This document shows positions 4,672-52,110 of a stretch of 52,110 nucleotides of DNA, piece by piece. The stretch is taken from contig JAQYWC010000018.1 of NCBI GenBank assembly GCA_030145245.1, forward strand, positions 1 to 52,110. Reading direction: 5' to 3'. The notes beneath the pieces were generated by a model. The model had not been told where the DNA came from. It worked only from the letters and a program-made list of their open reading frames with translations, and did no database searches. A program made the position numbers and the translations under genes. The stretch's first letter is position 1; every line of letters starts with the position of its first letter. Source of the DNA: Desulfobacterium sp. (GTDB lineage: Bacteria; Desulfobacterota; Desulfobacteria; Desulfobacterales; Desulfobacteraceae).

Positions 4672-7347
4672 GTGAAAAAAAACAATTACAGTCTCGATAA
4701 AAATTTCTTGTCCATCAAAACAGAGTGTGGTGAATACAGGTTTAAAGTTGATGGTGATACAGGCTTGGCCAATGCACAACGGATTGCAGAGGTAATGGTC
4801 AGCGAAATGGAAAAAATCGAAAACAAATTTCAAACCGCCAGGGAAAAAACGAATCCATACGCAAAGTTACTGCTGTCAAACTTAAACATTTCCGACAAAT
4901 ATATTCAACTTGAGAACAAATACAACCTTCTCCTTCAAAAACATGAAGAGATGAAGGCGTTATACCAGCGCCAGGAAAAATCAGGCGACGCATACAAGCA
5001 GAGGCTGAAACAGAACAGATCACCCCTGAAAACACAGCCATCTGACGACCTGCCTCCTTCCCGGGAAAAACAACCGGTTAAAGAGACAGGCCGGACGCTG
5101 CCCGGTGAAATCCGGAAAGAAACGTCCATCTCACCGCCACAGCCATCGATTAAGCCACAACCTGAGACTCCGGTAAAGCCGCCTGTAGCGCAACCCATAA
5201 AACCGTTGAAAAAGCCGGAGCCTGCCGCAAAGAGAACGGAAGTGCCTCCGACAAAGACAGAGGCCCCGATAAAGCCCCTGGAGCAGAAGCAGGACCAGGC
5301 AAAGACTGAGGTTCCAACCCCTTCCCTGGAGCAGGAGCAGAGGCAGGCGAAACCGGCTGTTCCGGCACAGCCAGAGACTGCGGTAAAGCCACCTGTAACG
5401 CAACCAACAGAGCCTCTGGAAAAACCTGAGCCTGCTGCAGAAACGCCGGAACAGACGCCGGCAAAACCAGAGGCCCCGATAAAGCCCCTGGAGCAGAAGC
5501 CGGACCAGGACCAGGCAAAGACTGAGGTCCCGACCCCTTCCCTGGAGCAGAAGCTGGCGAAACCGGCTGTTCCGACACAGCCAGCGCCCCTGGTAAAACA
5601 GATATTAGAGCAGTTGGAAAAGTCACAGCCATCTACAAAAACCCAGGAACAGACGCCGGCAAAAACAGAGGCCCCGGTAAAGCCTCTGGAGCAGGACCAG
5701 GCAAAGGCTGAGGTCCCAACCCCTTCCCTGGCGCAGGAGCAGGCAAAACCGGCTGTCCGGCCACAACCCGAGCCGCCGGTAAATCCACCTGTGGAGCAAC
5801 CGGTAGAGACGTTGGAAGAGCCCCAGGAAGAACAGTCCTCTCAACTGAGAATTAATACGCCGGGAAGAATTCCAAATAGTGCCATTGAATCCGGTAATAA
5901 TTATAGTGATGAATTTCAGTTGCCTTCCCTGGATTTTCTTAAACGCGCCGACAAGGAGATAGAGGTTGACCATGAGGCCATAAGAAGGGATGCAGAGCTG
6001 CTTGAACAGAAACTCGGTTACTTTGGAATCAAGGGAGAGGTCATGGAGGTCTCGCCAGGGCCTGTTATCACCACCTTTGAATATAAGCCGGCTCCTGGTA
6101 TCAAGATCAGCAAGATCGTGAATCTGGCAGATGATCTGGCCCTGGCCTTAAGCGCCCTGAGTATCCGCATTGTTGCACCCATTCCCGGCAAAGACGTGAT
6201 CGGCGTTGAAATTCCCAATGCCAAGATGAGCATTGTTCCCTTTATTGACATTGTCGGCTCTGACGAGTTCAAAAATAATGATTCCCGTACCCCGGTCTGC
6301 CTTGGCAAGGATATCATCGGCAATCCCGTTGTTGTGGGACTTGACAAAATGCCCCATCTTTTGATCGCAGGGGCCACGGGAACCGGAAAAAGCGTTGGCC
6401 TGAACGCCATGATAGCAAGCATCCTGTATAAATCATCCCCTGACAGGGTAAAATTTATCATGATCGATCCCAAGCGCATCGAGCTGTCACTGTTCAATGA
6501 TATTCCCCACCTGATCACGCCGGTGATCACGGACATGAAAAAAGCCAATACAGCCCTCCAATGGGTGGTAAGGGAGATGGAGCGCCGTTATGAGATGCTT
6601 GCCAAGCTACAGGTGAGAAACATTGAACAATATAATCAAAAGATAAAGAGTTCGGATCTGTCTGAGTATGAGGAAGATGAATGTTTTGAGGAGTTTTCAT
6701 ACATTGTCATCATAATCGATGAGCTGGCGGACCTGATGATGACCGCAAGCAAGGATATTGAATTTTCCCTCACCCGGATTGCCCAGATGGCAAGGGCTGC
6801 CGGCATCCATCTGATCCTTGCCACCCAGCGTCCTTCGGTGGATGTGCTCACCGGCATCATCAAGGCCAATTTTCCCACACGGATATCCTTCCAGGTCTCA
6901 TCCAAAACCGATTCCAGGACAATCATCGATTCCAACGGCGCTGAGACCCTTCTGGGCAGGGGAGATATGCTCTTTGTCCCCCCGGGAACCGCAAGGCTTA
7001 CCCGGGTTCATGGCACCTATCTCTCAGAAGAGGAGCTCATCACCATAACCACTTTTCTGAAAGCCCAGGGAAAACCCCGGTATGTGCTTGACGTGACCAC
7101 GGAAAAAGAGGAAGAACCGGCCGTGGAGATCAGCGACGATGATTATGATGAAAAATACCAGGCTGCCCTGGAATACGTCCTGTCCACCAGACAAGCGTCC
7201 ATATCAAGTGTTCAGCGCGCCCTCAGGGTCGGATATAACCGGGCGGCAAGGATCATTGACCTGATGGAGAAGAAAGGCATTGTCGGCCCCTCCGACGGAG
7301 TGAAACCCCGCCAGGTCTTAATCGACCGCATGGAACAGACCTTCTGA
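4672..7347 (+). CDS. FtsK/SpoIIIE-type DNA translocase with a ZapA-like N-terminal domain
   Basis: 891-aa ATP-driven double-strand DNA pump. Residues about 8-80 resemble ZapA: a beta strand pair (ECGEYRFKVDGD), a helix with AQRIAEVMVSEMEKI, and the hallmark YAKLLLSNLNISDKY. A short coiled coil and a Pro/Glu/Lys-rich linker (about 115-400) follow. The motor starts near 425: Walker A GATGTGKS at 567-574, Walker B VIIIDELADL with Asp683-Glu684, then LATQRPSVDV. A winged-helix gamma domain (about 825-885, SSVQRALRVGYNRAARI) ends it; in FtsK this domain reads polar DNA motifs. No transmembrane segment is visible, unlike FtsK. GTG is the only start upstream of the conserved region, and its ribosome site is weak. 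Motor assignment is secure; the ZapA homology is by eye. Confidence 0.88.
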   Translation: MKKNNYSLDKNFLSIKTECGEYRFKVDGDTGLANAQRIAEVMVSEMEKIENKFQTAREKTNPYAKLLLSNLNISDKYIQLENKYNLLLQKHEEMKALYQRQEKSGDAYKQRLKQNRSPLKTQPSDDLPPSREKQPVKETGRTLPGEIRKETSISPPQPSIKPQPETPVKPPVAQPIKPLKKPEPAAKRTEVPPTKTEAPIKPLEQKQDQAKTEVPTPSLEQEQRQAKPAVPAQPETAVKPPVTQPTEPLEKPEPAAETPEQTPAKPEAPIKPLEQKPDQDQAKTEVPTPSLEQKLAKPAVPTQPAPLVKQILEQLEKSQPSTKTQEQTPAKTEAPVKPLEQDQAKAEVPTPSLAQEQAKPAVRPQPEPPVNPPVEQPVETLEEPQEEQSSQLRINTPGRIPNSAIESGNNYSDEFQLPSLDFLKRADKEIEVDHEAIRRDAELLEQKLGYFGIKGEVMEVSPGPVITTFEYKPAPGIKISKIVNLADDLALALSALSIRIVAPIPGKDVIGVEIPNAKMSIVPFIDIVGSDEFKNNDSRTPVCLGKDIIGNPVVVGLDKMPHLLIAGATGTGKSVGLNAMIASILYKSSPDRVKFIMIDPKRIELSLFNDIPHLITPVITDMKKANTALQWVVREMERRYEMLAKLQVRNIEQYNQKIKSSDLSEYEEDECFEEFSYIVIIIDELADLMMTASKDIEFSLTRIAQMARAAGIHLILATQRPSVDVLTGIIKANFPTRISFQVSSKTDSRTIIDSNGAETLLGRGDMLFVPPGTARLTRVHGTYLSEEELITITTFLKAQGKPRYVLDVTTEKEEEPAVEISDDDYDEKYQAALEYVLSTRQASISSVQRALRVGYNRAARIIDLMEKKGIVGPSDGVKPRQVLIDRMEQTF
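5150..5820 (+). repeat. Degenerate tandem repeat encoding the FtsK linker
   Basis: Three units of about 200-210 bases share near-identical blocks, for example AGGCCCCGATAAAGCCCCTG at 5261 and 5471 and a diverged copy at 5669. They encode Pro/Glu/Gln/Lys-rich text (EAPIKPLEQ, TEVPTPSLEQ, AKPAVP). This is a low-complexity, length-variable linker between the ZapA-like domain and the motor. Confidence 0.75.
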
Positions 7348-7409
7348 GGTTTATCCTCTTGAGATAGATCAGGAGTATTGAAGCGCTGGCTTATTAAGGA
7401 GACATGGAT

Positions 7410-8609
7410 ATGCTTTACAGAAAGATCCCAAAAACAGGAGACAAGCTCTCCATACTGGGTTTCGGCTGCATGCGCCTTCCGGTCAGGGACGGCGGCATCG
7501 ATGAAGAGCGGGCGACCCGCCAGATCCGCCATGCCATCGACAAGGGCGTCAATTACCTGGATACGGCCTGGCCCTACCATGGGGGTGAAAGCGAACCCCT
7601 GCTCGGCCGCGCCCTTTCCAGCGGCTACCGGGAAAAGGTGAAGATCGCCACCAAGCTCCCCTCCTGGATGATCAAAACCCGTGAAGAGATGGACCAATAT
7701 TTCGCCTCCCAGCTGGAGCGGCTCAACACGGACCATATCGACTATTACCTGCTCCACGCCCTTTCAGGCCCAATGTGGGACCGGCTTGAGCAGTTGGGCG
7801 TCATGGAATTCCTGGACAGCCTCAAAGCAGAAGGAAGCATCAGGAATGCGGGTTTCTCCTTCCACGGCACCCTGGAAGACTTTAAAAAGATCGTGGATGC
7901 ATACCCCTGGGAATTCTGCCAGATTCAGTACAACTATCTGGATGAAGAGAACCAGGCCGGCACAGAGGGCCTGGAATATGCCGCCCAAAAGAACCTTGGC
8001 ATCATCATCATGGAACCCCTGCGGGGCGGCAACCTGGGCATGCCCGAGCCGCCCCCTGCCATTGCACCCATCTGGAAAAAGGCGGAAAAGGAGCGAACTC
8101 CGGTGGAGTGGGCGCTTCGCTGGATCTGGAACCGCCCGGAGGTAACCGTGGTGCTTTCCGGAATGAACGACGAGACCCACATACAAGAGAACCTTGCCAT
8201 TGCAGAAAAGGCCCTGGAAAAGTCCCTAACCAAAGCTGAGCTTGCGCTTGTGGCAGAAGCAAGCCAAAAGTACAAGGAGCTCATGAAGGTGGGCTGCACC
8301 GGATGCGGATACTGCCTGCCCTGCCCCGAAGGGGTGGCAATCCCCAACTGCTTTGAGGTGTACAACAAGCTTCATCTGTTCGGCAATGCGGAAGCGGCAA
8401 AGGCAACCTACACCATAAGAATGAGCGGCATACTCGCGGGGGGAGATCCCTCCTATGCCTCCCGTTGTACCCAGTGCGGCGAATGCCTGGAAAAATGCCC
8501 CCAGAATCTCGAAATCCCGGATTTTCTTTCCAATGTCGCCCAAGAGCTGGAGGGACCGGATCTCAGGGAAAGGGAAGCCATGGCAAAAAAGATGCTCAAC
8601 ATCGAATAA
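7410..8609 (+). CDS. Aldo/keto reductase with C-terminal dicluster ferredoxin domain
   Basis: 399-aa predicted oxidoreductase. The N-terminal TIM barrel carries the aldo/keto reductase tetrad: Asp51 and Tyr56 in LDTAWPYHGGE, Lys82 in IATKLP, His116 in YYLLHAL. The C-terminal part (about 285-390) has two cysteine clusters, CTGCGYCLPCPEG and CTQCGECLEKCPQ, that should bind iron-sulfur centres. This architecture is common in strict anaerobes and suggests coupling to ferredoxin rather than only NAD(P)H. The substrate is unknown. I prefer the ATG at 7410 (8 bases after GGAG; family members start MLYRKIPKTG) over the ATG at 7404. Monocistronic: it converges with a kinase gene and follows the translocase by 62 bases. 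Confidence 0.9.
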   Translation: MLYRKIPKTGDKLSILGFGCMRLPVRDGGIDEERATRQIRHAIDKGVNYLDTAWPYHGGESEPLLGRALSSGYREKVKIATKLPSWMIKTREEMDQYFASQLERLNTDHIDYYLLHALSGPMWDRLEQLGVMEFLDSLKAEGSIRNAGFSFHGTLEDFKKIVDAYPWEFCQIQYNYLDEENQAGTEGLEYAAQKNLGIIIMEPLRGGNLGMPEPPPAIAPIWKKAEKERTPVEWALRWIWNRPEVTVVLSGMNDETHIQENLAIAEKALEKSLTKAELALVAEASQKYKELMKVGCTGCGYCLPCPEGVAIPNCFEVYNKLHLFGNAEAAKATYTIRMSGILAGGDPSYASRCTQCGECLEKCPQNLEIPDFLSNVAQELEGPDLREREAMAKKMLNIE

Positions 8610-8634
8610 CGAACTCTTAATTAGGATGAATCAA

Positions 8635-10947
8635 TCAGGTTTTTTCTCTTTTCAGGGGCAGGCGGATGATGAATTTCGTACCGGTTCCGGGAGCGGACTC
8701 CACCTCCATGGTTCCGGAATGGTCCTCGGTGATGATGAAATAGGAGACAGAGAGTCCGAGGCCTGTGCCGATGCCCACATCCTTTGTGGTAAAAAAAGGC
8801 TCAAACACACGCTTGCGGATCATCTCATCCATGCCCGGGCCGTTGTCCCCTATTTCAATGCGGGCCATCTCCCCCTCCGGCATCACGCCCAGGGAAAAAC
8901 AGGGTTGCTCTGCCGACCTGCCCGCGTCTGCCATGGCCTGGGCCCCGTTCTTGAGGATGTTGAGAAAAACCTGCTGGAGTTTGGAGGCATCACACAATAC
9001 CCGGGGCATATTCCCTTCATATCGCCGAATAATTTTAATTTGGCGAAAATCATATTTCTTTGTCAGGTCATAGTCGCTTGAAGCAAGCTCAATGGCCTTG
9101 TCCAGCAGTTCCCCCAGATCTTGCAATGCAAACCCGAAATCACTCTTACGGCTGAAACTGAGCATATTCTCCACGATATTCGCCGCCCGCCGGCCCGCCT
9201 CCATGATCGCCCGGAACATCTTAGATATATCCCGCTGGTCCATGTAGTTTTTAATCATCTCCATTGAGGTGCCGCACTCCTCGGCAACGCACCTGTTTCC
9301 CGGCAGATCGCCATAAAGGCGGTTCCGCATGACCAGGACATTCTGAAGAATGCCGGCCAGGGGATTGTTGATCTCGTGGGCCATGCCCGCAGCCAGCCCG
9401 CCCACGGACATCATTTTTTCCGTCTGGATCATGAGTTCTTCCATGCGAACCCGCTCGGTCACGTCATCCACGCGAATAACGGCACCCTGAACTTTATCGG
9501 TTATCAGGGGATAGATGGTCAAATCGACGTAGCGTATTTCATCGCCTGTTTTCCAGGGGATCTTTTCACTCTTCCCTGGCTCGCTGTCCCGGATCGCCTG
9601 CCGGACCTTATCCATCTCTTGTCCCAGTTGCGGAAACACCCTTGAGATCAATTCTCCCTGGGCCTGGTAAGGGGAGACCCCGGTGGCCTTCTCGGCCCCA
9701 AGGTTCCACTGCATGACCCGGCCCTCCGGATCAACCCCCACAAGTACCGACGGCATGGAATCGATGATATTTTTCAGAAGGTTCCTCAAACGACGCAGTT
9801 CCTCCTCCGCACGTCCCCGCTCAACGATCATATTATTAAAGGTGCGGGCAAGAATCCCCAGCTCATCATCCGTCTCGATCTTCGCCCTTACGGTCAAGTC
9901 TCCGCCGGCCATTAACGCCGTTGTTTCTGTCAGTTTCACAATGGGACGGGAAATGGTTCTGGATAAAAACAGGGCGATCATGATCCCAATAATCATGGTT
10001 ACGATTCCCATCAGTAAAAACCACCTTGTCTGCTTGAAAACCGGGGCAAAGGCTTCTTCAATATCCTTTTTCACAACCATGCCCACCTTTAAGAAAGGCA
10101 GGTATCTCCATGCGGCCAGCACCTTTTTCCCCCGGTAATCATCATATACGCCAACCCCATTTTCCCCAAGCACGGCCTTCTGGATCGGCAATGCTTTCAG
10201 CGACCCGATAGCCACCTTTCTTTTTAATGCTGCTTCCGCATCATACCGGAGAGGGGTAAGGAATACCGCGCTTTCATCCATTTTTGAAGCAATCAGGGCT
10301 TCGCCAGTTTCCCCCAGGCCCGTATAATCCAGGGCCACCCGGTAGATCGCCCCGGCCCCCACCTGCACCGCAACAACTCCGATTATTCTTCCATCTTTAA
10401 AGACAGGGGATGCTATAAATGTGGCCGACGCCTGGGATGGGATGTAATAATAAAACCCGGATGGCTCTGTCTTCAACGAAGCGATCGCCTTGCTGAAAAC
10501 CTCGGCCAGGGGGGAATCCTTATAGGGCCCCGACACCAGGTTGGTACCGAAATCATCTTCACGGAGCACGGTAAAAAAGATATCGCCCGAGGTAGAGATA
10601 AGGAACAGGTCATAATATCCGTAGGTCTCCTTAAAATGACTCAAAAAAGCCCCAAGCGTCCCGTCAACCGTCATATACTTCCGGGTCGGTTCCAACAGGG
10701 CCAGGGAATCGACGACCTTTGAACTGCGCGCCAGCACGGCAAGATCTTTTCCTGCTTTCTTGAAATAGCTGTTTATGTAATCGACTTTCCGTTGGGCAAT
10801 GGTTTCAAGGTTGTTTGTTACGACCGTTCTCAGGGTTTCAACGGAATGATTGTAGGCGATATAACCAAACACCAGCAGGGGCACCAATGCCGACAATAGA
10901 AACCAGCTCAGTAATCTGTGGGCGATGGCCGGTTTTATGAAGGGCAT
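8635..10947 (-). CDS. Membrane sensor histidine kinase, Cache-HAMP-PAS-HisKA-HATPase
   Basis: About 770 aa. A transmembrane helix (about 15-33) is followed by an extracytoplasmic dCache-like sensor (about 35-300), a second helix near 305-328, a HAMP linker, a PAS domain starting at LKNIIDSMPSVLVGVDPEG, and a HisKA domain with phospho-accepting His in GMAHEINNPLAGIL (about residue 520). The HATPase domain has an N-box-like NILKNGAQAM, DNGPGM and GTGLGL. No receiver domain is attached and no separate response regulator lies nearby. The ligand is unknown. ATG at 10947 has AAGG at a 5-base spacer; a GTG two codons earlier is possible. The related hybrid kinase ends 184 bases upstream on the same strand. 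Confidence 0.88.
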   Translation of the reverse strand: MPFIKPAIAHRLLSWFLLSALVPLLVFGYIAYNHSVETLRTVVTNNLETIAQRKVDYINSYFKKAGKDLAVLARSSKVVDSLALLEPTRKYMTVDGTLGAFLSHFKETYGYYDLFLISTSGDIFFTVLREDDFGTNLVSGPYKDSPLAEVFSKAIASLKTEPSGFYYYIPSQASATFIASPVFKDGRIIGVVAVQVGAGAIYRVALDYTGLGETGEALIASKMDESAVFLTPLRYDAEAALKRKVAIGSLKALPIQKAVLGENGVGVYDDYRGKKVLAAWRYLPFLKVGMVVKKDIEEAFAPVFKQTRWFLLMGIVTMIIGIMIALFLSRTISRPIVKLTETTALMAGGDLTVRAKIETDDELGILARTFNNMIVERGRAEEELRRLRNLLKNIIDSMPSVLVGVDPEGRVMQWNLGAEKATGVSPYQAQGELISRVFPQLGQEMDKVRQAIRDSEPGKSEKIPWKTGDEIRYVDLTIYPLITDKVQGAVIRVDDVTERVRMEELMIQTEKMMSVGGLAAGMAHEINNPLAGILQNVLVMRNRLYGDLPGNRCVAEECGTSMEMIKNYMDQRDISKMFRAIMEAGRRAANIVENMLSFSRKSDFGFALQDLGELLDKAIELASSDYDLTKKYDFRQIKIIRRYEGNMPRVLCDASKLQQVFLNILKNGAQAMADAGRSAEQPCFSLGVMPEGEMARIEIGDNGPGMDEMIRKRVFEPFFTTKDVGIGTGLGLSVSYFIITEDHSGTMEVESAPGTGTKFIIRLPLKREKT

Positions 10948-43537: not shown

Positions 43538-44851
43538 ATGAAACCGACCTCTTTGGATTATCATAAAAACATTTTCATCCGTGCCGGTCTTTTCCTTTGC
43601 CTGACATTCCTATTCCCCCCGTCTCCCTGCTTTTCAGACCCCTTTGTCGATATTGCATCCTCCCTTATCAGCCGCTCGCCTGAAGTCAGGATCGCTTTGA
43701 AGGATCTTGAACTGGCCCGCACGGAAAAATCCATTGCAATGGCCAAATACCTGCCCACGGTATCGGGCACTGTGGGAACCGGGGAGAACCGGGAAACGTA
43801 CCAGGATCAATCAAACCATTACAGCGACCTGTCCGCAGGCCTGTCCCTGTCCCAGGAGATCTTCAACATGTCGAAACTCCATGGGATCAAGGGAGCTGAA
43901 AAGCGGATTGACACGGCCAGAGCCAAAATAGAACAGGCCAAGCAGGCGGTCATTATGGAGTTGGCCCTGGCATGGGGAGCCTATTGGAAGGCGCTCAGAC
44001 AATCGGAGGTCAGCGATGAAGACATCTCCATCCTTGAAGACTACCTTGAAAGTTCGAAGACAAGGTACGCCGCAGGGGTTCTCACCATCACCGATGTCCG
44101 CCTTGCCAGGACAAGACTCCAAGGGGCCCAATCACAGAAAATCATTTTTTCAAGGCAAGTCCACCGCACCAGGGAAGCCCTAAGGGAAATCATCAAAATG
44201 CCGGTTCCGGCAAAAGTGAATCTTTTCATTGCCGCCCTTGCAGAGACCACCCTGCCCGACCCTGGGCGCCTGGTCCAAACCCATCCGGCTGTCCGGCCGC
44301 TCATGATTGAAGTATCAGCCCTGGATGAGGACATTGACCGTGAAAAGGCCGACCGACTGCCCACGGTTCAACTCACCTCCACCTACACCTACGAGTGGGA
44401 CGGAGAATACCGTTCCAGCCGGTATCCCCATGAAGAGAGCCGGATAGGTGTTGAGTTAAACCTCCCCATTTATACCGGCGGCAGCGTCACCCATAATATC
44501 CGGAAAGCAGCTCAAAAAAAACAGCGTCATCTTATCGCCCTGCAGGAAAAAAGAGATGAAATCATGCGGGATGCCCGGGCCGCCACCTTTGATCTTGAGC
44601 AGAGCGCCCGGGAACTTGCCATCACCCGTAAGCAACTGGAGTTTGCACGGCAGACCCTCAGTGCCATGAACGAAGAGTATGAACTGGGAACAAGATCCTC
44701 CGTTGATGTTTTTCTGGCACAGGCTGATATGATCAATTCGAAACTGAGCCTCATCTCGGCCCGGGAGCAGCATGCCCGGTTCATATTCGCCTACCTGTTT
44801 GCCCTTGGGCAGCTGGATATACCCATTTTGAAAGATCAGCAGGACAGCTGA
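43538..44851 (+). CDS. TolC-family outer-membrane channel of a type I secretion system
   Basis: 437 aa. A signal segment (about 12-33) is followed by the TolC start DPFVDIASSLISRSPEVRIAL and two similar halves rich in coiled-coil helices (IALKDLELARTEKSIAMAKYLP, KTRYAAGVLTITDVRLARTRL, EYELGTRSSVDVFLAQADMI). It should form the outer-membrane exit duct for the adaptor and ABC proteins encoded downstream. First gene of the secretion operon; 10 bases to the next gene. Confidence 0.9.
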   Translation: MKPTSLDYHKNIFIRAGLFLCLTFLFPPSPCFSDPFVDIASSLISRSPEVRIALKDLELARTEKSIAMAKYLPTVSGTVGTGENRETYQDQSNHYSDLSAGLSLSQEIFNMSKLHGIKGAEKRIDTARAKIEQAKQAVIMELALAWGAYWKALRQSEVSDEDISILEDYLESSKTRYAAGVLTITDVRLARTRLQGAQSQKIIFSRQVHRTREALREIIKMPVPAKVNLFIAALAETTLPDPGRLVQTHPAVRPLMIEVSALDEDIDREKADRLPTVQLTSTYTYEWDGEYRSSRYPHEESRIGVELNLPIYTGGSVTHNIRKAAQKKQRHLIALQEKRDEIMRDARAATFDLEQSARELAITRKQLEFARQTLSAMNEEYELGTRSSVDVFLAQADMINSKLSLISAREQHARFIFAYLFALGQLDIPILKDQQDS

Positions 44852-44861
44852 AAGGCATGCC

Positions 44862-46568
44862 ATGACAATGGATCAAACCACACCTGAAAAAAACAAAGAT
44901 ATTCTCCAATTGCTCACCGGCAATTGGCTCCGATTATTGCTCACCATCCCCAAAGTCAGAGAGGATGCCCTGATGATGGTGGGGGCATCAGTGATGATTA
45001 ATCTGCTGGCCCTTGCCCTGCCCCTGTCTTTGATGCAGATCTATGACCGGATCATTCCCAATTCAAGTTTTTCCACCCTGACCTGGCTTGTAATGGGAGT
45101 GATGGTTGCCATCATACTTGAAACCGTTGTAAAAATCAGCCGAAGTTTTATCAGCAACTGGTTGTCCGCAAGATTGGAACATATACTAAACACCGAGGTT
45201 CTGAATCATTTCCTATCCGCCAGACTGGACCGGTTCGAACAGGACAAAGCCGGTGTCCATTTTGAACGGTACAACGCTATCCAAACCATCAAATCAAATA
45301 TTTCAGGCCAAACCCTGTTGGTACTGATCGATATCCCCTTCGCCCTCCTCTTCCTGGGCCTGCTCTACTATATCAGCAGTTTTCTTTGCTATTTAACCCT
45401 GGGAATCATCTGCCTTTTCGCTTTGATCGTGCTTATAACAAAAACACGATTGCAACGCAGCAACCAGGCCCAGGTCGACGCTACAAAGGAAAACCTGGAT
45501 TTCGTCCTTGAAACCCTTGACGGCATTCATACGGTAAAGTCCCTGGGCATGGAAGACAAAATGTTCCGGAAATTTGAAAATATCCAGGCCCGGATGTCAT
45601 GGGCGGAATTACGGTCAAACAGGTGGAAATCCCTACCGGAAAACTATGCCCCTTTCTTTACCCAACTGAATATGCTGGGAATCATTTTTCTTGGTGCCGA
45701 TCTTGTTATCCGGGGAGCCATGACCGTGGGCGGTATGACTGCCTGTACCATGCTGGCCACCAGAAGTCTCCAGCCGGTTATAAAGGTAGCCGGATTCTGG
45801 CTCCGCTTTTCAGAGGTGAAAATTGCCCGGCAACAGCTTGAAGAGATCATTGCATTACAGCTCCCGGAAGACCTGAGCCGGATTCCCGTCGTCCGTGACA
45901 TTGAAGGTACGGTCTGCTTTGATGACCTCACCCTGGAAAAAGAGTCGGATGCCACCCCCCAAAGGTTCAATGCCCTTATCCAGGCCGGTGAAGCGGTAGG
46001 GATCACCGGGGATAATCCGGAACAGACCACAGCACTCATGCTCACCATCTGCGGCATGTACAAGCCCGTATCAGGCCACATTTTCATTGACGAGTACCGG
46101 ATATCGGCCATGGATCATTCATACTTTGACGGAAGGGTGGAATACCTGCCCAGAAAAGGATGGCTGTTCAACGGCACAATTCTGGACAACATCTCCATGT
46201 TCAATGAAAATAAACGTCAAGTGGCCCTGGATACTGCAGCCCTTCTTGATCTGAATAAATTTGTGGCCGATCTGCCAAGCGGATACGAAACAATGGTAGA
46301 CCAGCGATCCAATGCTTCCCTTCCCCAGGGATTGATCCAACGGACCTGTTTTGCCAGGGCATTGGTGACCATCCCACGGGTATTGATCATCGACCGGACA
46401 TTGAGCAGCATGGATCAGGAGACCCATGATCTGATATGCACCATACTCAGAAAACTCAAGGGCCGGTGCACCTTTTTCATTGTCTCGGATTACGGTGTGT
46501 TTCCCTTTGAAATGAACCAGACCATCGAATGCGGCCCGGATGGTATGAAATTAACCGCCGCGCAATAG
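44862..46568 (+). CDS. ABC exporter half 1, degenerate ATP-binding domain
   Basis: 568 aa with a type I exporter membrane domain (about 25-310, MINLLALALPLSLMQIYDRIIPN) and an ABC domain lacking the usual catalytic residues. In the Walker A position (380-392) GxxGxxGxGKST has become GITGDNPEQTTAL, so the Lys is Thr389. The Q-loop Gln is Arg431, the signature is LPQGL (487-491) instead of LSGGQ, Walker B ends Asp511-Arg512 instead of Asp-Glu, and the H-loop His is Asp543. It has no C39 domain. The membrane part looks intact and the frame is open, so it is a functional pseudo-ATPase rather than a pseudogene. It probably pairs with the ABC protein at 47919. Gap to the hemerythrin gene is 17 bases. 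Confidence 0.88.
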   Translation: MTMDQTTPEKNKDILQLLTGNWLRLLLTIPKVREDALMMVGASVMINLLALALPLSLMQIYDRIIPNSSFSTLTWLVMGVMVAIILETVVKISRSFISNWLSARLEHILNTEVLNHFLSARLDRFEQDKAGVHFERYNAIQTIKSNISGQTLLVLIDIPFALLFLGLLYYISSFLCYLTLGIICLFALIVLITKTRLQRSNQAQVDATKENLDFVLETLDGIHTVKSLGMEDKMFRKFENIQARMSWAELRSNRWKSLPENYAPFFTQLNMLGIIFLGADLVIRGAMTVGGMTACTMLATRSLQPVIKVAGFWLRFSEVKIARQQLEEIIALQLPEDLSRIPVVRDIEGTVCFDDLTLEKESDATPQRFNALIQAGEAVGITGDNPEQTTALMLTICGMYKPVSGHIFIDEYRISAMDHSYFDGRVEYLPRKGWLFNGTILDNISMFNENKRQVALDTAALLDLNKFVADLPSGYETMVDQRSNASLPQGLIQRTCFARALVTIPRVLIIDRTLSSMDQETHDLICTILRKLKGRCTFFIVSDYGVFPFEMNQTIECGPDGMKLTAAQ

Positions 46569-46585
46569 AATTACCGGAGGAGGAT

Positions 46586-47908
46586 ATGGACCAGCAACGA
46601 TGGCAACGATGGGTCATGCATACGGCAACAGTTTGGGAAGACATAAGTGATATTGTTAAGGAAACCGGTATCGAACGGATCGACAGGGAGCACCAGCGGC
46701 TGATCGAGTATCTCCTGGATATGGATGAGGTGGTCAGCCGGGCCGGCGGCCCGGAATTCGACTCGGAAAAACTCAAGGCACAGACCCTGTTGTTCAATCG
46801 CTTTTTAACCGCTCTCAAAGCCCATTTCAAAACAGAAGAATCCTTAATAGAAAAGTACCGGTTACCGGGGGAAAAACTCCAGCACCGGGAGCATCAGTCT
46901 ATTCTGGAAAATTTCGACACTATTTTTTCCGATTTTAAGGAAGGAGTTCTCAGCATTTTTCACCACCTGAGAATAGACATTCTGTCGGAAATGGTGAACC
47001 ATATCAACGGCATCGACCACCAGACCTTTTTACTCGAAAATTTCCGACCAACGTTGGAAAGGGCCACAAAATGGGAAGATATCCGGGAGATCATCAAAAC
47101 CACGGGCCTGCCCTTTGTGGACAAGGAACACCAACACCTTACCGAAAAAATCATAGAACTTAAAATCCACTTATCCGGCATAAATTTTAAGATTACAACC
47201 CGGTCCCAGAAAGAAGAGATCCTATCACACCTTAAAGACCTGTTCGGTTATTCCGAAGCCCATTTCAACCATGAAGTGGTTTTTTTAAAAAAATACCACC
47301 TGGGCGAAGAAAACCAGAAGGGCCTGCACCATTATTTTCTAACGGAGGTTCACGATCTGTCCCGGAAGATCCGGAACAATCGGCAAACCGATTTAAAGGA
47401 ATTCATCGCATTTCTCCTCTCCTGGTGGGTGGAGCACATCAACGGAACAGATTATGCCGAATTTCATTTTTCGAAGATTGCCGGACCAGTATTCAACCAT
47501 TCAAAGACATCGGATGATTTTGAATGGTTGATCCGGAAAACGGGTATCCCGGAGGTCGATAACGAACATGCCTGCCTGATCGGCCTGCTGCTGCAACTTG
47601 AAAAACAAGACGACCCCGACACCCCTTCCGTTGATACCAAGACAGAACTGGGCCGAATCGCCAAATTTGTCGGCCAGCATTTCAGACATGAAGAAAAAAT
47701 CATGGCTGAGCAGAACCTCAGGGGCCAGGAAATTCATAAAGAAGCCCACGCCAAGCTGCTCCGATATGTGGAGGAGGCAATGACCCATGCTGTTTCGGGA
47801 AGGTCACGAATTTCACCGGCCTTTCTGAAAAGAATAATGCGGTGGTGGGTCGAACATACCAATGGCATGGACTATGATACATTTGTTTTAAACCGACCAC
47901 TAACATAG
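46586..47908 (+). CDS. Triple-domain bacteriohemerythrin
   Basis: 440 aa with three hemerythrin domains (about 10-155, 155-300, 305-440), each starting near a W/F, GI, D-x-EH pattern. Domain 3 keeps all seven di-iron ligands: His in VDNEHACL, HFRHE (H-x3-E), HKEAH (H-x3-H) and HTNGMD (H-x4-D). Domains 1 and 2 keep HFKTE and HFNHE plus HINGID and HINGTD, but lack the first His of the H-x3-H pair (Gln in domain 1, Lys or Gln in domain 2). So one full and two altered sites. Start 46586 has GGAGGAGG in front; a frame to 46529 lies inside the ABC gene. No signal peptide, so cytoplasmic. Hemerythrins bind O2, NO or serve in iron or redox sensing; the role here is inferred from the operon. Confidence 0.9.
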   Translation: MDQQRWQRWVMHTATVWEDISDIVKETGIERIDREHQRLIEYLLDMDEVVSRAGGPEFDSEKLKAQTLLFNRFLTALKAHFKTEESLIEKYRLPGEKLQHREHQSILENFDTIFSDFKEGVLSIFHHLRIDILSEMVNHINGIDHQTFLLENFRPTLERATKWEDIREIIKTTGLPFVDKEHQHLTEKIIELKIHLSGINFKITTRSQKEEILSHLKDLFGYSEAHFNHEVVFLKKYHLGEENQKGLHHYFLTEVHDLSRKIRNNRQTDLKEFIAFLLSWWVEHINGTDYAEFHFSKIAGPVFNHSKTSDDFEWLIRKTGIPEVDNEHACLIGLLLQLEKQDDPDTPSVDTKTELGRIAKFVGQHFRHEEKIMAEQNLRGQEIHKEAHAKLLRYVEEAMTHAVSGRSRISPAFLKRIMRWWVEHTNGMDYDTFVLNRPLT

Positions 47909-47918
47909 ACGAAACCAT

Positions 47919-49991
47919 ATGGATACAGATTACAAAAAAGAAAGAATCTCGGGAAGCCTTGGCAGGTGTATGCTCCCTTTATTGGACACCCTGGGCTGGA
48001 AAGGCGGCAAAAGAACCTTTCTCAATGCCCTGCCCTATGATTACCGGGATTTCGATATCCACGACATGATGAACACCATGGCCAACCTGGATTTCAAGGT
48101 GAATACCAGCCGGGGCACCCTGAACAGGCTGGACATCCGCCTGCTGCCCTGTCTTTTCGTGGACAGCAACCAAAATCCCCATGTGCTCATCAGCCGTGAA
48201 GAAAAAGGACTGTTCTGTTTTGAAGGAGCCTCCAGCTCATTTCAAAGCCTGCCCCTACCCGGCAAATCAGGGGATTTTTATTTTTTCGACCACCTGGACG
48301 ACACCGTTAAAAATCCGGAAAGGGAGCAGAGCAACTGGTTTTCCAATTTTTTTACCAGGTTCAGAAAACCAATATTCATGGCATTTTTCATTTCCCTGCT
48401 TCTGACATTTACCGCGCTTGCCTCCCCATTCATCGTCATGGGGATCTACACACAGATCAATACGGCGGAAACACTGGACGGATTCTGGATCATCGGCGCG
48501 GGGATTTTAGGTATCCTTCTGGTTGATCTCTCATTTCGCCTTTTCCGGCACCGGATCTTAAGTTTTCTCGGGGCAAGAATGGGCTATCTTGTTTCCACCC
48601 AGGTCTTCAAGAGGATTCTTTCCTTCAGTCCTTCGGCAACGGAAAATGCCTCCGTGGGATCCCAGATCGTCCGCATGCGAGATTTCAACAGTGTCCGCGC
48701 GTTCATCGAAGGCCCGGGCATGGTCTCGGTCATGGAACTGCCTTTTCTGGTTATCCTGTTTGTAGGACTGATCGTAATGGCAGGCTATCTGGCCTTTATT
48801 CCCGCTGTTACCGGCCTGCTCCTCTTGTTTTTTTCAGCCCTGATCCTCCCCTTTGTCAAAAAAAACAACACGGAAGCTGCAACATCGGGCAGCCGGAAGC
48901 AGGCCTACCTAATCGAATTTTTTTCCGAATTCAGGGATATCCGCATGAGCGGCCTGTCAAACAAGTGGCGGAAAAAATACGAAACTATCTCAGCGGATGC
49001 AGCCATGGATACATGCAAAACCGCTAACATCAATGCCGTGATCAACCATGTTTCCCAGGCAACCGTATCCATGGCAGGCGCCCTGACCATCGCCGTCGGG
49101 GTTTTCGGAGTCCTGAACGGCCAGTTCAGCGGTTCAGTGCTCATCGCAGCAATGATGTTAGTCTGGAAAATCCTGACTCCGATCTCCTCGGGATTTTCGG
49201 TTTTTTCCCAGACCATCCGTATAAAAAAATCCCTGGGCCAGCTGAACCGCCTCATGACCATGCCCCTGGAAACCGTTGACGACAATATGCCTTCCATCCG
49301 TTTCAACGGCCGGATCAAGATCAAGGGAATTTCCCTCCGATACAAGCCCGAATACTATCCAGCCCTCCTCGGCATGGACCTGGATGTAGATAAAGGGGAA
49401 TTCGTTGTTATAAAAGGCCATGACGGCGCTGGAAAAACCAGCCTTCTAAAACTGATCATGGGAATGTACAAAGCCCAGACCGGTGTGATAACCCTGGACG
49501 GCACAAACATCCAGCAACTGCCCCCGGCCTTGCTGAGACGCTCTATTAGCTACCTTCCCCAGGAAGAGACCCTGTTTAACATCAGCATTGAAAAAAATTT
49601 AAAATACTATTCCCCGGCGTCAACCCATAAGGAAATTCTGGAGATCCTGGACCGGCTGGGGCTGACAGAGGAAATCGATATGCTGCCCCAGGGTCTGGAC
49701 ACCCCGGTCTCCCAACTGGATACCGTTAAAAATCATACATCCTTCCGGAAACGGCTCTCCGTTGCCCGCTCGTTACTAAACCCATCCCGCATCATCCTGC
49801 TCGACGAACCATCCAGGGGAATGGAAACAGATCGTCTCCAGTTGCTGATCGATATCCTCAGGTCCGTAAAATCCAAAAAAACCGTGGTGGTGGCCACCAA
49901 CCATCCTGGGTTTATCCCATTGGCCGACAAAGTCGTGACCATGAACATGGGCAGCATCACGAACCTGGAGTTCCCCGGAAAAAACCAGTAG
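47919..49991 (+). CDS. ABC exporter half 2 with C39-like domain
   Basis: 690 aa. An N-terminal C39-like region (about 1-145, 'LGWKGGKRTFLNALPYDYRDFD') lacks an obvious catalytic Cys and would only bind substrate. The membrane domain spans about 155-440. The ABC domain keeps Walker A GHDGAGKT (500-507), Q-loop Gln in YLPQEETLF, Walker B LLDEPS with Asp629-Glu630, and an H-loop His662 in TNHPG. The signature, however, is NHTSF (605-609) in place of LSGGQ. With half 1, it would complete one asymmetric transporter. Starts 10 bases after the hemerythrin gene and ends 11 bases before the adaptor gene. Confidence 0.9.
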   Translation: MDTDYKKERISGSLGRCMLPLLDTLGWKGGKRTFLNALPYDYRDFDIHDMMNTMANLDFKVNTSRGTLNRLDIRLLPCLFVDSNQNPHVLISREEKGLFCFEGASSSFQSLPLPGKSGDFYFFDHLDDTVKNPEREQSNWFSNFFTRFRKPIFMAFFISLLLTFTALASPFIVMGIYTQINTAETLDGFWIIGAGILGILLVDLSFRLFRHRILSFLGARMGYLVSTQVFKRILSFSPSATENASVGSQIVRMRDFNSVRAFIEGPGMVSVMELPFLVILFVGLIVMAGYLAFIPAVTGLLLLFFSALILPFVKKNNTEAATSGSRKQAYLIEFFSEFRDIRMSGLSNKWRKKYETISADAAMDTCKTANINAVINHVSQATVSMAGALTIAVGVFGVLNGQFSGSVLIAAMMLVWKILTPISSGFSVFSQTIRIKKSLGQLNRLMTMPLETVDDNMPSIRFNGRIKIKGISLRYKPEYYPALLGMDLDVDKGEFVVIKGHDGAGKTSLLKLIMGMYKAQTGVITLDGTNIQQLPPALLRRSISYLPQEETLFNISIEKNLKYYSPASTHKEILEILDRLGLTEEIDMLPQGLDTPVSQLDTVKNHTSFRKRLSVARSLLNPSRIILLDEPSRGMETDRLQLLIDILRSVKSKKTVVVATNHPGFIPLADKVVTMNMGSITNLEFPGKNQ

Positions 49992-50002
49992 AGGAAATTA
50001 TC

Positions 50003-51358
50003 ATGAATACCAATGAATCCAACAATAGTTTGAAAAACTTTGGAACTTTTCCAGGAAAAATACAGAACAGGCATCTTGACCGGTCGATTCTTTTACGGGA
50101 AACCGGCAGCGAATCGACGATAAAGAGAATTCTGTTTTTAATCGGTGCCATTGTCGTGGCCTTCATCGTTTGGGCCAATTTCCTGGAAATTGCCGAAGTG
50201 GCCTCCACCACCGGGAAAATCACCCACCAGGGAGATGCTGTCATGGTTCAGCACCTCATGGGCGGTCGGGTAAAAAAGGTCCTTGTACGCAACGGCACGT
50301 TTGTCAAGGAGGGCCAGGCATTGATTCTACTGGACCCGATCATATCAAAACTGGAACGGGAATCCATCCGGGGCCGGAAATATCTGCTTTCTGCCGTTAA
50401 AATCAGACTTGAGGCCCTGCTTTCCGAGAATGAACCCGATTTTTCATTGATAATAGATCCCAATGTAGCTGGGGCACAACGCCGGTTGTACAGGAACGAA
50501 CTGACGACCTATGCCCTGGAGGGAAATGTACTCATCAATCAGATTGAACAGGTGGAATCTGAAATCCGGCTTCAAAAAAAACAACAGGTAAAACTTAAAA
50601 AATCCGTTGACCTGATCAAAGAAGAACTGGACATCAGAAAGAAACTGGGCTCAAAAGGACTCAATTCACGGGTCGCCATACTCCAACTTGAAAAAGAGTA
50701 CAACAATGCCTTTTACAGCTTAAAACAGGTTCCGGCCGCCATTAACAAACTGAGTTCCCGGAAACAGGAAATTCAAAATGCCCTTGCAGGCATGACCGCC
50801 AAACATATGGAAAATTATGCAAGGGAATTGAGTGAGGTCAACAATGAAATCACCACCCTGGAGAAGAGCATAAACATATTCGACAGCAACATTGATGCCC
50901 TTGAGGTAAAGGCACCGGTGGAAGGATACGTCCATGACCTACGCCTGCAGGGTCCCGGCAGGGTGGCCCAGCCCGGCGATCTCCTGCTCACCATTATTCC
51001 CACCAGGAAACCCCTGGTGGCCAAGGTCAAAATCGACTCAAAGGATATCGGCCACATCAAAACCGGCCAGACCGCCACAATGCGGGTCGCCACCTATGAT
51101 TCAAGGCGGTACGGGGTCTTAAAAGGTAAATTGATCCGAATATCTCCCTCCGCCCTGATACCCGGGGATCAATCCGCCCCTTATTATGAAGGCATCATTC
51201 AGTTGGAAAAACCGTATCTGGGGGAAACAGAAGGCCGAATGAACGTTTTCTCGGGCATGACATTAACGGCGGACATCCGAACTGGTTCCAAATTATTCAT
51301 CGACTACCTTCTCAAACCGATTCATATCGCAACCCAGACCTCATTCCATGAAAGATAA
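50003..51358 (+). CDS. HlyD-family membrane-fusion adaptor of a type I secretion system
   Basis: 451 aa. A short cytoplasmic N-terminus, one transmembrane helix (about 42-62, ILFLIGAIVVAFIVWANF), a biotinyl-lipoyl-like half (GRVKKVLVRNGTFVKEGQ), a long coiled-coil hairpin (about 155-300), the second lipoyl half (ALEVKAPVEGYVHDLRLQGPG), and a beta-barrel tail. It joins the ABC pair to the TolC-like duct. The gap to the large-protein gene is 101 bases. Confidence 0.93.
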   Translation: MNTNESNNSLKNFGTFPGKIQNRHLDRSILLRETGSESTIKRILFLIGAIVVAFIVWANFLEIAEVASTTGKITHQGDAVMVQHLMGGRVKKVLVRNGTFVKEGQALILLDPIISKLERESIRGRKYLLSAVKIRLEALLSENEPDFSLIIDPNVAGAQRRLYRNELTTYALEGNVLINQIEQVESEIRLQKKQQVKLKKSVDLIKEELDIRKKLGSKGLNSRVAILQLEKEYNNAFYSLKQVPAAINKLSSRKQEIQNALAGMTAKHMENYARELSEVNNEITTLEKSINIFDSNIDALEVKAPVEGYVHDLRLQGPGRVAQPGDLLLTIIPTRKPLVAKVKIDSKDIGHIKTGQTATMRVATYDSRRYGVLKGKLIRISPSALIPGDQSAPYYEGIIQLEKPYLGETEGRMNVFSGMTLTADIRTGSKLFIDYLLKPIHIATQTSFHER

Positions 51359-51459: not shown

Positions 51460-52110
51460 ATGTCAGACAAAAATGATTTCCATGATAAGGACGTCTTAGA
51501 AGCCTTACTCAACCCGCCCGAAACCGAAGAGATCCTAGGCAAAGCCAAGGATTATTCGGGGATCAACGTTTCCGAATCCGACAAACGACATGCCCAGGAT
51601 GTAACGGCCCAGGTCCAGGTCAGTTTCAACACCGGCGCAAATGGGGAGGCTATCATAAGGACCGAAGATCTTCTCCAGGACAGGCCCGATCCAGACCCCG
51701 GCAATGCTATAATCCTTGAACCGTCTGTTCCCCGGACATTGGGACGTTTGGAAGACAGGGGAGACGGAACCTATTTATTCGAGCCAGGCCCCGGATTTCA
51801 GGGCAATACGCTTCCTGTATCGTTCAAACTGGCAGAACCGCCGGTAACACCCGGGAGCACCACGGATAATGAACCCAGCGACACCAGGCAAAGCACACCT
51901 GAAGAAATCATTCCCCCGGCAGAGTCCACAATAGAACCCCAACCTGACGTTGACGAGGGGAAGGATACCACCCCCACACCTTCGGAACCCGGCCCGGCAG
52001 AGTCCACGATAGAACCCCAACCTGACGTTGACGAGGGGAAGGATACCGCCCCCACGCCTTCGGAACCCGGCCCGGCAGAGTCCACAATAGAACCCCAACC
52101 TGACGTTGAC
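51460..52110 (+). CDS. N-terminal part of a large repeat-containing secreted protein (partial)
   Basis: The frame opens at ATG 51460 (MSDKNDFHDKDVLEALLNP) and stays open through the window end, 217 codons. AGGAG lies 9 bases before. There is no signal peptide, as expected for a type I substrate. Residues about 88-128 contain GDGTYLFEPGPGFQGN, which resembles a cadherin-like strand pair common in RTX adhesins. From residue 153 a 26-residue acidic, Pro-rich repeat (PAESTIEPQPDVDEGKD...) begins. The context, right after ABC, HlyD and TolC genes, makes this the likely export substrate, possibly a biofilm adhesin. RTX repeats and the secretion signal would be downstream, outside the window. Confidence 0.8.
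   Translation, partial: MSDKNDFHDKDVLEALLNPPETEEILGKAKDYSGINVSESDKRHAQDVTAQVQVSFNTGANGEAIIRTEDLLQDRPDPDPGNAIILEPSVPRTLGRLEDRGDGTYLFEPGPGFQGNTLPVSFKLAEPPVTPGSTTDNEPSDTRQSTPEEIIPPAESTIEPQPDVDEGKDTTPTPSEPGPAESTIEPQPDVDEGKDTAPTPSEPGPAESTIEPQPDVD
51916..52110 (+). repeat. 78-base tandem repeat in the secreted-protein gene
   Basis: Units start at 51916, 51994 and 52072, each 78 bases (26 codons), nearly identical; differences seen are single bases such as ACC/GCC and ACA/ACG. The last unit is cut by the window end, so at least 2.5 copies exist. Low divergence suggests recent slippage or recombination. Confidence 0.9.

Follow-up and report, generated by a model that had tools for sequence, protein, structure and literature searches.

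A hemerythrin gene between the pseudo-ATPase half and the presumed motor half of a candidate adhesin exporter in Desulfobacterium sp.

Introduction

Several exporters of the ATP-binding cassette (ABC) type, TAP, TM287/288, TmrAB, BmrCD and Pdr5 among them, carry one degenerate ATP site, and the available text of PMC7756269 still calls the role of this site in asymmetric exporters enigmatic. As described there, one site is canonical and the deviating signature serves the degenerate one; in Pdr5, the Walker A Lys, the Walker B Glu, the H-loop His and one signature are changed. Type I secretion systems (T1SS) with two ABC genes also exist, RtxB and RtxE of the MARTX system both being reported as needed (PMC3034196, available part). 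As far as the accessible portions of PMC6272769 and PMC13090378 describe them, the giant adhesins SiiE (with SiiA/B) and LapA and DvhA (with cyclic di-GMP (c-di-GMP) control) are repeat proteins exported by T1SS whose display is regulated, as proposed here, with control exerted on retention or release by other proteins. Here we analyze a stretch of 52,110 nucleotides from Desulfobacterium sp. (JAQYWC010000018.1, assembly GCA_030145245.1), which is the entire contig, contig 14 of its genome, and is hereafter called the window. Our subject is its pair of type I secretion half transporters, ABC1 and ABC2, and the hemerythrin gene that separates them.

Type I secretion, asymmetric ABC pairs and bacteriohemerythrin are each known. 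Among the titles and abstract openings found in searches of one open-access library, none ties a hemerythrin to a type I exporter. Three papers there that contain hemerythrin, type I secretion and ABC transporter mention hemerythrin 1, 1 and 3 times. In the available part of one of them, PMC11784015, hemerythrin is mentioned in a row of a proteomics table, and the available part of PMC13090378 contains 0 mentions of it. We favor, with a probability of roughly 0.45, a type I exporter that is a heterodimer of one motor half and one regulator half and serves a giant cadherin-like or RTX adhesin, with the hemerythrin acting on ABC1.

Results

ABC1 has lost most catalytic residues, the Lys and Glu together with its whole clade

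The three genes under study are the following:

44862..46568, + strand: ABC1, half transporter of 568 amino acids (aa) without an N-terminal C39-like domain (CLD), with a pseudo-ATPase nucleotide-binding domain (NBD); PF00664, PF00005; TIGR03375 338 bits
46586..47908, + strand: hemerythrin with three HHE domains; PF01814 52.7 bits; TIGR02481 153.4 bits and NF033749 138.6 bits, both above cut-off
47919..49991, + strand: ABC2, half transporter of 690 aa with an N-terminal CLD-like region, presumed motor half; TIGR03375 393.5 bits

An earlier note on positions 44862-49991 had rightly reported both ABC frames as open, and had overlooked the three-domain hemerythrin gene between them. The frame of this gene is open from 46529, and we place its likely start at 46586 from the ABC1 stop and the layout of a related locus, L196.

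To read the motif columns, we aligned both halves with canonical type I exporters. In ABC1, they fall at the following positions:

46008..46031, + strand: Walker A remnant GDNPEQTT (residues 383-390), Lys replaced by Thr389, Thr390 kept (alignment)
46152..46154, + strand: Q-loop position, Gln replaced by Arg431 (alignment)
46320..46334, + strand: signature LPQGL (487-491), an instance of the family's common LPxG[ILV] type (alignment and tally)
46392..46397, + strand: Walker B, Asp511 kept, Glu replaced by Arg512 (alignment and tally)
46488..46490, + strand: H-loop position, His replaced by Asp543 (alignment)

The losses of the Walker A Lys, Q-loop Gln, Walker B Glu and H-loop His were thus found at the very residues that the earlier note had named. 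The AlphaFold2 model of ABC1 (pLDDT 80.8, pTM 0.54) retains the exporter and NBD fold. Its top Foldseek match is HlyB (8dck_A, TMq 0.77), and its top three solved structural neighbors are chains of the HlyB/D complex.

A contig scan with ABC1 as the single query returned no relative, and a scan with an alignment of three ABC1 proteins returned 163, of which the best 80 were kept. Further searches covered sets of 58, 86, 389, 395, 7, 48, 52, 24 and 297 genomes with some overlap between sets; we extracted 28 regions surrounding matches and two more for substrates. The search cut-offs were strict, so that presence per genome is given as a minimum. The motif tally comprises 103 ABC1 rows, 27 with a hemerythrin beside or inside ABC1 and 76 without. 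It excludes L025, L104, L108, L174, L175 and L176, which repeat other loci, and L195, whose genes are shortened. For L048, the first frame supplied Walker A, and Walker B and the signature were inspected by eye in the second frame piece; its tally letters in those columns carry no meaning.

Among the 27 hemerythrin loci, the Walker A Lys column of ABC1 holds Thr (20), Ala (5), Ser (1) or Met (1), and Lys in none. The Walker B Glu column reads Lys in 13, Arg in 12 and Gln in 1 of 26 rows; with the separately read Lys of L048, a basic residue replaces the Glu in 26/27. The Ser/Thr that follows the Lys position is kept in 25/27 and the Walker B Asp in 26/27, and none of the 26 covered rows has the H-loop His. 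The Q-loop Gln is kept in 19/27, and the tally therefore indicates that its loss in the window is local. In the 76 loci without hemerythrin, ABC1 has Lys in 73 (Arg in 2, Val in 1), Glu in 67 (Asn in the other 9) and the H-loop His in 34. The earlier note had held that normal motifs in close homologs would speak against it: they do occur in this sister group (Lys 73/76, Glu 67/76), and not in the window's own clade.

Eight close pairs of dead-clade ABC1 were tried for the ratio of nonsynonymous to synonymous substitution rates (dN/dS). Seven gave a finite NBD dS, three of these with dS above 1, and their NBD dN/dS was 0.05-0.16, indicating that the dead NBD is maintained by purifying selection. 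Relative to the transmembrane domain (TMD), the NBD has a mean pairwise identity of 1.02 among 17 hemerythrin rows; among 14 other rows the value is 1.00. That selection kept both halves, as previously proposed, agrees with these values for ABC1, and for ABC2 with conservation only. The basic residue at position 512 might take over phosphate contacts, which is speculation.

We regard it as very improbable that ABC1 is decaying or mis-sequenced. Such a reading would account for the loss of almost all ABC1 catalytic residues, and broken frames do occur in L048 (ABC1) and L186 (ABC2), as do shortened genes in L195. However, the dead state is common to 27 loci from several phyla, dN/dS is 0.05-0.16, and the losses of Lys, Gln, Glu and His are shared by the closest relatives of the window, L196 (genome G1027) and L171 (G1069), which came from the Desulfovibrionales search and have 60% TMD identity to it. 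Sequencing error or a pseudogene was accordingly rejected as a candidate, 27 loci sharing the Lys and Glu losses at low dN/dS.

ABC2 retains intact Walker motifs with a displaced H-loop His

The corresponding positions of ABC2, all read from the alignment, are:

49416..49439, + strand: Walker A GHDGAGKT (500-507), intact, Lys506
49731..49745, + strand: signature position, NHTSF (605-609)
49806..49808, + strand: Walker B Glu630, intact
49899..49904, + strand: H-loop, Asn661 in the His column, His662 next to it

The Q-loop Gln548 is retained as well, and TIGR03375 covers ABC2 over profile positions 3-679 (393.5 bits against a cut-off of 693.1). The view that ABC2 keeps everything except the signature therefore holds for Lys506, Gln548 and Glu630 and fails for the H-loop His, which is displaced, His662 possibly standing in for it. 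Across the hemerythrin clade, ABC2 has the Walker A Lys in 26/26 covered rows and the Walker B Glu in 23/25. The H-loop column there reads Asn in 18/25 and His in 5/25, versus His in 62/69 for the rest of the family.

The two halves belong to a tandem family without LSGGQ

By sequence, the window pair belongs to a broad family in which type I secretion ABC genes stand in tandem. In the loci without hemerythrin, ABC2 follows ABC1 directly (within 300 bp) in 70/76 and is fused to it in 4/76; the other 2/76 loci are cut by contig ends. The fusions (L070, L084, L097 and L099) are single frames of about 1300 aa in which the two signatures stay distinct, LPAGV or MPAGV in the first half and FSASF or LPNGF in the second. 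TMD distances of ABC1 and ABC2 correlate with r=0.955 over 4950 pairs of 101 loci, the loci being related and not independent. The tandem arrangement across the family and the one-chain fusions in 4 loci favor a predicted heterodimer of ABC1 and ABC2, as proposed earlier. The earlier proposal of one fully dead composite site is supported as well. Separately, a 1316-aa open frame surrounds an ABC1 match at G773:C93.

We consider it unlikely that an ABC2 homodimer is the exporter, with ABC1 as a separate inhibitory or decoy subunit outside the pump. Intact Lys and Glu, and the CLD-like region, are indeed found in ABC2 alone. Yet the halves are fused in 4 loci and almost constantly adjacent, the ABC1 TMD follows ABC2 and is as well conserved as the ABC1 NBD, and in a homodimer the intact Walker motifs would pair with NHTSF, which has neither the Ser nor the Gly of LSGGQ in place.

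In ABC1, the signature usually takes the form [LIMV]-P-x-G-[ILVM], with Pro at the second position in 94/103 rows; Ser is found there in L181-L183 (LSGGV) and in six hemerythrin rows (L052, L172, L173, L186-L188). That of ABC2 is mostly L-P-[ST]-S-[FML]. The Gln of LSGGQ occupies the fifth signature column in 0/102 covering ABC1 rows and 0/96 covering ABC2 rows. Most family members have undamaged Walker motifs, so the absence of LSGGQ reflects variation across the family rather than decay in the window operon. What had been taken for a loss of both signatures in this operon is thus a replacement found across the examined family, members with intact Walker motifs included. L181-L183, from the Magnetococcales order, combine LSGGV with an ABC1 that has Lys, Gln, Glu and His intact and with the lack of a hemerythrin; they branch beside the rest of the non-hemerythrin group.

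These features place the window pair close to the degenerate-site exporters, with one composite site dead, the other the presumed motor, and the dead site under selection (PMC7756269, available text). The site at which ABC1 Arg512 would face ABC2 NHTSF is of the degenerate kind, and the closest parallel for a site altered in all four motifs is Pdr5. The other site of Pdr5 is canonical, however, and the degenerate-site exporters as described in that text keep one canonical site, whereas the window family has no LSGGQ in either half: the second site of the window departs from the consensus LSGGQ and His, with LPQGL on ABC1 and Asn661 on ABC2. Also unlike those exporters, the presumed motor half of the window clade often has no H-loop His, and its dead half is accompanied by a hemerythrin.

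Among profile models, the LssB-type permease/ATPase TIGR03375 is the best-scoring NCBIfam model for both window halves. An ordinary LssB member was nevertheless rejected, ABC1 (338.4 bits, aligned from profile position 126) and ABC2 (393.5 bits) both scoring far below the cut-off of 693.1; in addition, ABC1 lacks the N-terminal region and the window has two different subunits. The tandem bacteriocin exporters of the NHLP type (TIGR03796/TIGR03797, cut-offs 853.3/709.4) were rejected as well, with 177.7/165.5 bits for ABC1 and 154.3/140.6 bits for ABC2.

A hemerythrin accompanies the dead half

Hemerythrins are iron proteins that often bind oxygen, and bacteriohemerythrins are known mainly as oxygen binders. 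The window hemerythrin resembles bacteriohemerythrin (NF033749/TIGR02481), passing the cut-offs and having all seven ligands in its third domain, and differs from it in the Gln at the fourth ligand of domains 1 and 2 and in being the fixed partner of an exporter. Its ligand sets are HHEQHHD, HHEQHHD and HHEHHHD for domains 1-3, only the third being complete. The 27 hemerythrins have one domain (12 proteins), three (10) or four (5), 62 in total. Of these 62 domains, 25 show the full HHEHHHD, and in 31 the only departure is a Gln at the fourth ligand. In 25/27 proteins one domain, and no more, has all seven ligands, which we read as selection for a single working diiron center per hemerythrin.

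The gene lies between the two ABC genes in 25/27 loci and upstream of ABC2 in L028. In L194 it is fused to ABC1, the HHE domain occupying residues 632-751 at the C-terminus of one 762-aa frame. Besides these, a second, diverged small hemerythrin-like frame was seen directly upstream of ABC1 in L177 (8159-8746), a locus of the Magnetococcales order.

The dead clade includes Desulfamplus, Desulfovibrionales, Magnetococcales, SAR324 and Nitrospinaceae. In a quick tree built on membrane-domain columns only (101 rows, omitting the outgroup and L094, L098 and L172, which form long branches), 26 hemerythrin loci and L195 stand on one side of one branch, with a Shimodaira-Hasegawa-like approximate likelihood ratio test (SH-aLRT) support of 96. 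In a larger tree with the outgroup, L172 falls inside the hemerythrin group and the split from the 76 other rows has a support of 95. There, the outgroup joins inside the hemerythrin side, beside the window group, and the 27 hemerythrin rows need two changes; this placement is probably a long-branch effect. Both types can share a genome, a hemerythrin-type pair and an intact pair coexisting in genome bin G772.

No close ABC1 was found at E 1e-55 in two other genomes of the same genus, and the ABC1 of Desulfamplus, from the same family, has 42% TMD identity to that of the window. With the nearest relatives found coming from the Desulfovibrionales search (60%) and not from Desulfamplus, the identities suggest that the window ABC pair was acquired by horizontal transfer.

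How the hemerythrin relates to the exporter is where the favored reading meets its strongest competitor, which is possible and in our judgment somewhat less probable: the same heterodimeric adhesin exporter, with the hemerythrin transcribed alongside it as a buffer for oxygen or iron that has no direct effect on the transporter, and the ABC1 pseudo-ATPase as the ordinary drift of one site, known from other asymmetric exporters. Bacteriohemerythrins being mainly oxygen binders would fit a buffer, as would hemerythrin and degeneration sitting on a single branch, and degeneration is also seen without hemerythrin in other members, L181-L183 having lost the Lys in ABC2. Against this competitor stand the fusion to ABC1 in L194 and the position between the ABC genes in 25/27 loci, as well as the single complete diiron set kept in 25/27. 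So do the Lys or Arg in place of the Walker B Glu in 26/27 and the low NBD dN/dS.

A proposed model of a hemerythrin-regulated exporter

In the heterodimer that we favor, ABC2 would be the motor, its Lys506, Gln548 and Glu630 facing the LPQGL of ABC1. At most one composite site would then be hydrolytic, the opposite one, formed by ABC1 Arg512 and ABC2 NHTSF, being dead. ABC1, the pseudo-ATPase half, would persist because it contributes a membrane domain, a signature and an NBD with a regulatory role. The hemerythrin, a predicted diiron protein without a membrane part, would act on ABC1, attached as in L194, and control would run from it to the pump: by conveying oxygen or redox state to the exporter, it would make surface display of the adhesin depend on oxygen or redox. 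The bacteria carrying this system mostly live at low oxygen. A stricter version, directly oxygen-gated secretion, is doubtful and slightly less probable than a buffer. It would have a hemerythrin with one diiron site dock on the pseudo-ATPase half and gate the sole remaining ATP site and, through it, the display of a giant adhesin, in a pump without LSGGQ in either half that is found in several phyla.

Several observations weigh against this reading. First, the association of hemerythrin with dead motifs seems to have arisen once; it therefore counts as a single event and not as independent repeats, and could be coincidence. L195 stands inside the dead clade without Lys, Glu or a hemerythrin match, its ABC1 and ABC2 being shortened, and is probably a decaying copy. 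Motif loss is also seen apart from hemerythrin. Nine ABC1 rows of the Desulfobulbaceae type (L026, L071, L072, L083, L086, L090, L092, L100 and L103) have Asn for Glu, with Gln to Glu and His to Asp changes as well. L094, L103 and L105 have no ABC1 Lys and no hemerythrin, and L103 has lost the Glu as well. L181-L183 show the opposite asymmetry, with Arg for the Walker A Lys in ABC2 and an intact ABC1. Second, the hemerythrins of L028 and L172 have no complete diiron set, and the fused hemerythrin of L194 was modeled at low confidence (10-residue means up to 60), with docking on ABC1 not seen. Third, His is missing from the H-loop column in 20/25 covered ABC2 rows of the hemerythrin clade, so the remaining site may be slow or inactive. 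Finally, dN/dS of the NBD exceeds that of the TMD in 7/7 dead-clade pairs, and likewise in 4/4 pairs of the other group.

If the hemerythrin does act through the dead half, the pseudo-NBD would serve as an input port, and the coupling of oxygen to adhesin secretion would take place at the protein level. The dead clade nearly always carries this candidate regulator. The family moreover forms a natural series, beginning with L181-L183, where ABC1 is intact with LSGGV and the ABC2 Walker A carries an Arg, continuing through the majority of the 76, where LPxG stands beside unchanged Walker motifs, and the Glu-to-Asn group, and ending in the dead clade. With no LSGGQ in either half, the family can also show how much signature drift an exporter tolerates while still working.

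The operon and its presumed substrate

The remaining genes of the operon are:

43538..44851, + strand: TolC-family outer membrane channel, 437 aa; PF02321 186 bits; TIGR01844 201 bits, below the cut-off of 225
50003..51358, + strand: HlyD-type membrane fusion protein, 451 aa; TIGR01843 309 bits, cut-off 208.65
51460..52110, + strand: start of a repeat protein, presumed adhesin substrate, running off the contig end; Cadherin_5 22.6 bits, below the cut-off of 26.5; 78-bp tandem repeat

The type I secretion gene set, ABC exporter, HlyD adaptor and TolC channel, is thus complete in the window operon, the TolC gene scoring above the Pfam cut-off and below that of TIGR01844, and the HlyD gene above that of TIGR01843. 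Likened by gene make-up, it resembles MARTX RtxB/RtxE, which also has two ABC genes, an HlyD and a giant substrate (PMC3034196, available part); that part makes no mention of hemerythrin, though no search aimed at it was made.

The last gene is cut by the contig end. It contains, at 51915-52110, 2.5 copies of the 78-bp tandem repeat, which is probably where the assembly stopped, and its fragment gave the single, sub-threshold Cadherin_5 match. No Pfam matches were found in the neighboring large frames of L185, L186 and L188. Beside the operons of L196 and L171, giant frames carry cadherin-like, Big_9 and related repeats (Pfam). The frame in G1069 is open over 2832 codons, stop to stop, with a C-terminus that by eye is RTX-like and glycine-rich, and its counterpart in G1027 also ends in repeats that look RTX-like by eye. 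By analogy with these relatives, the substrate in the window is likely a cadherin-like RTX adhesin.

Downstream of the operon in L173 lies a 970-aa frame (6312-9221) with a Nif11-type domain at its start. Such a domain recalls the leaders of NHLP exporters.

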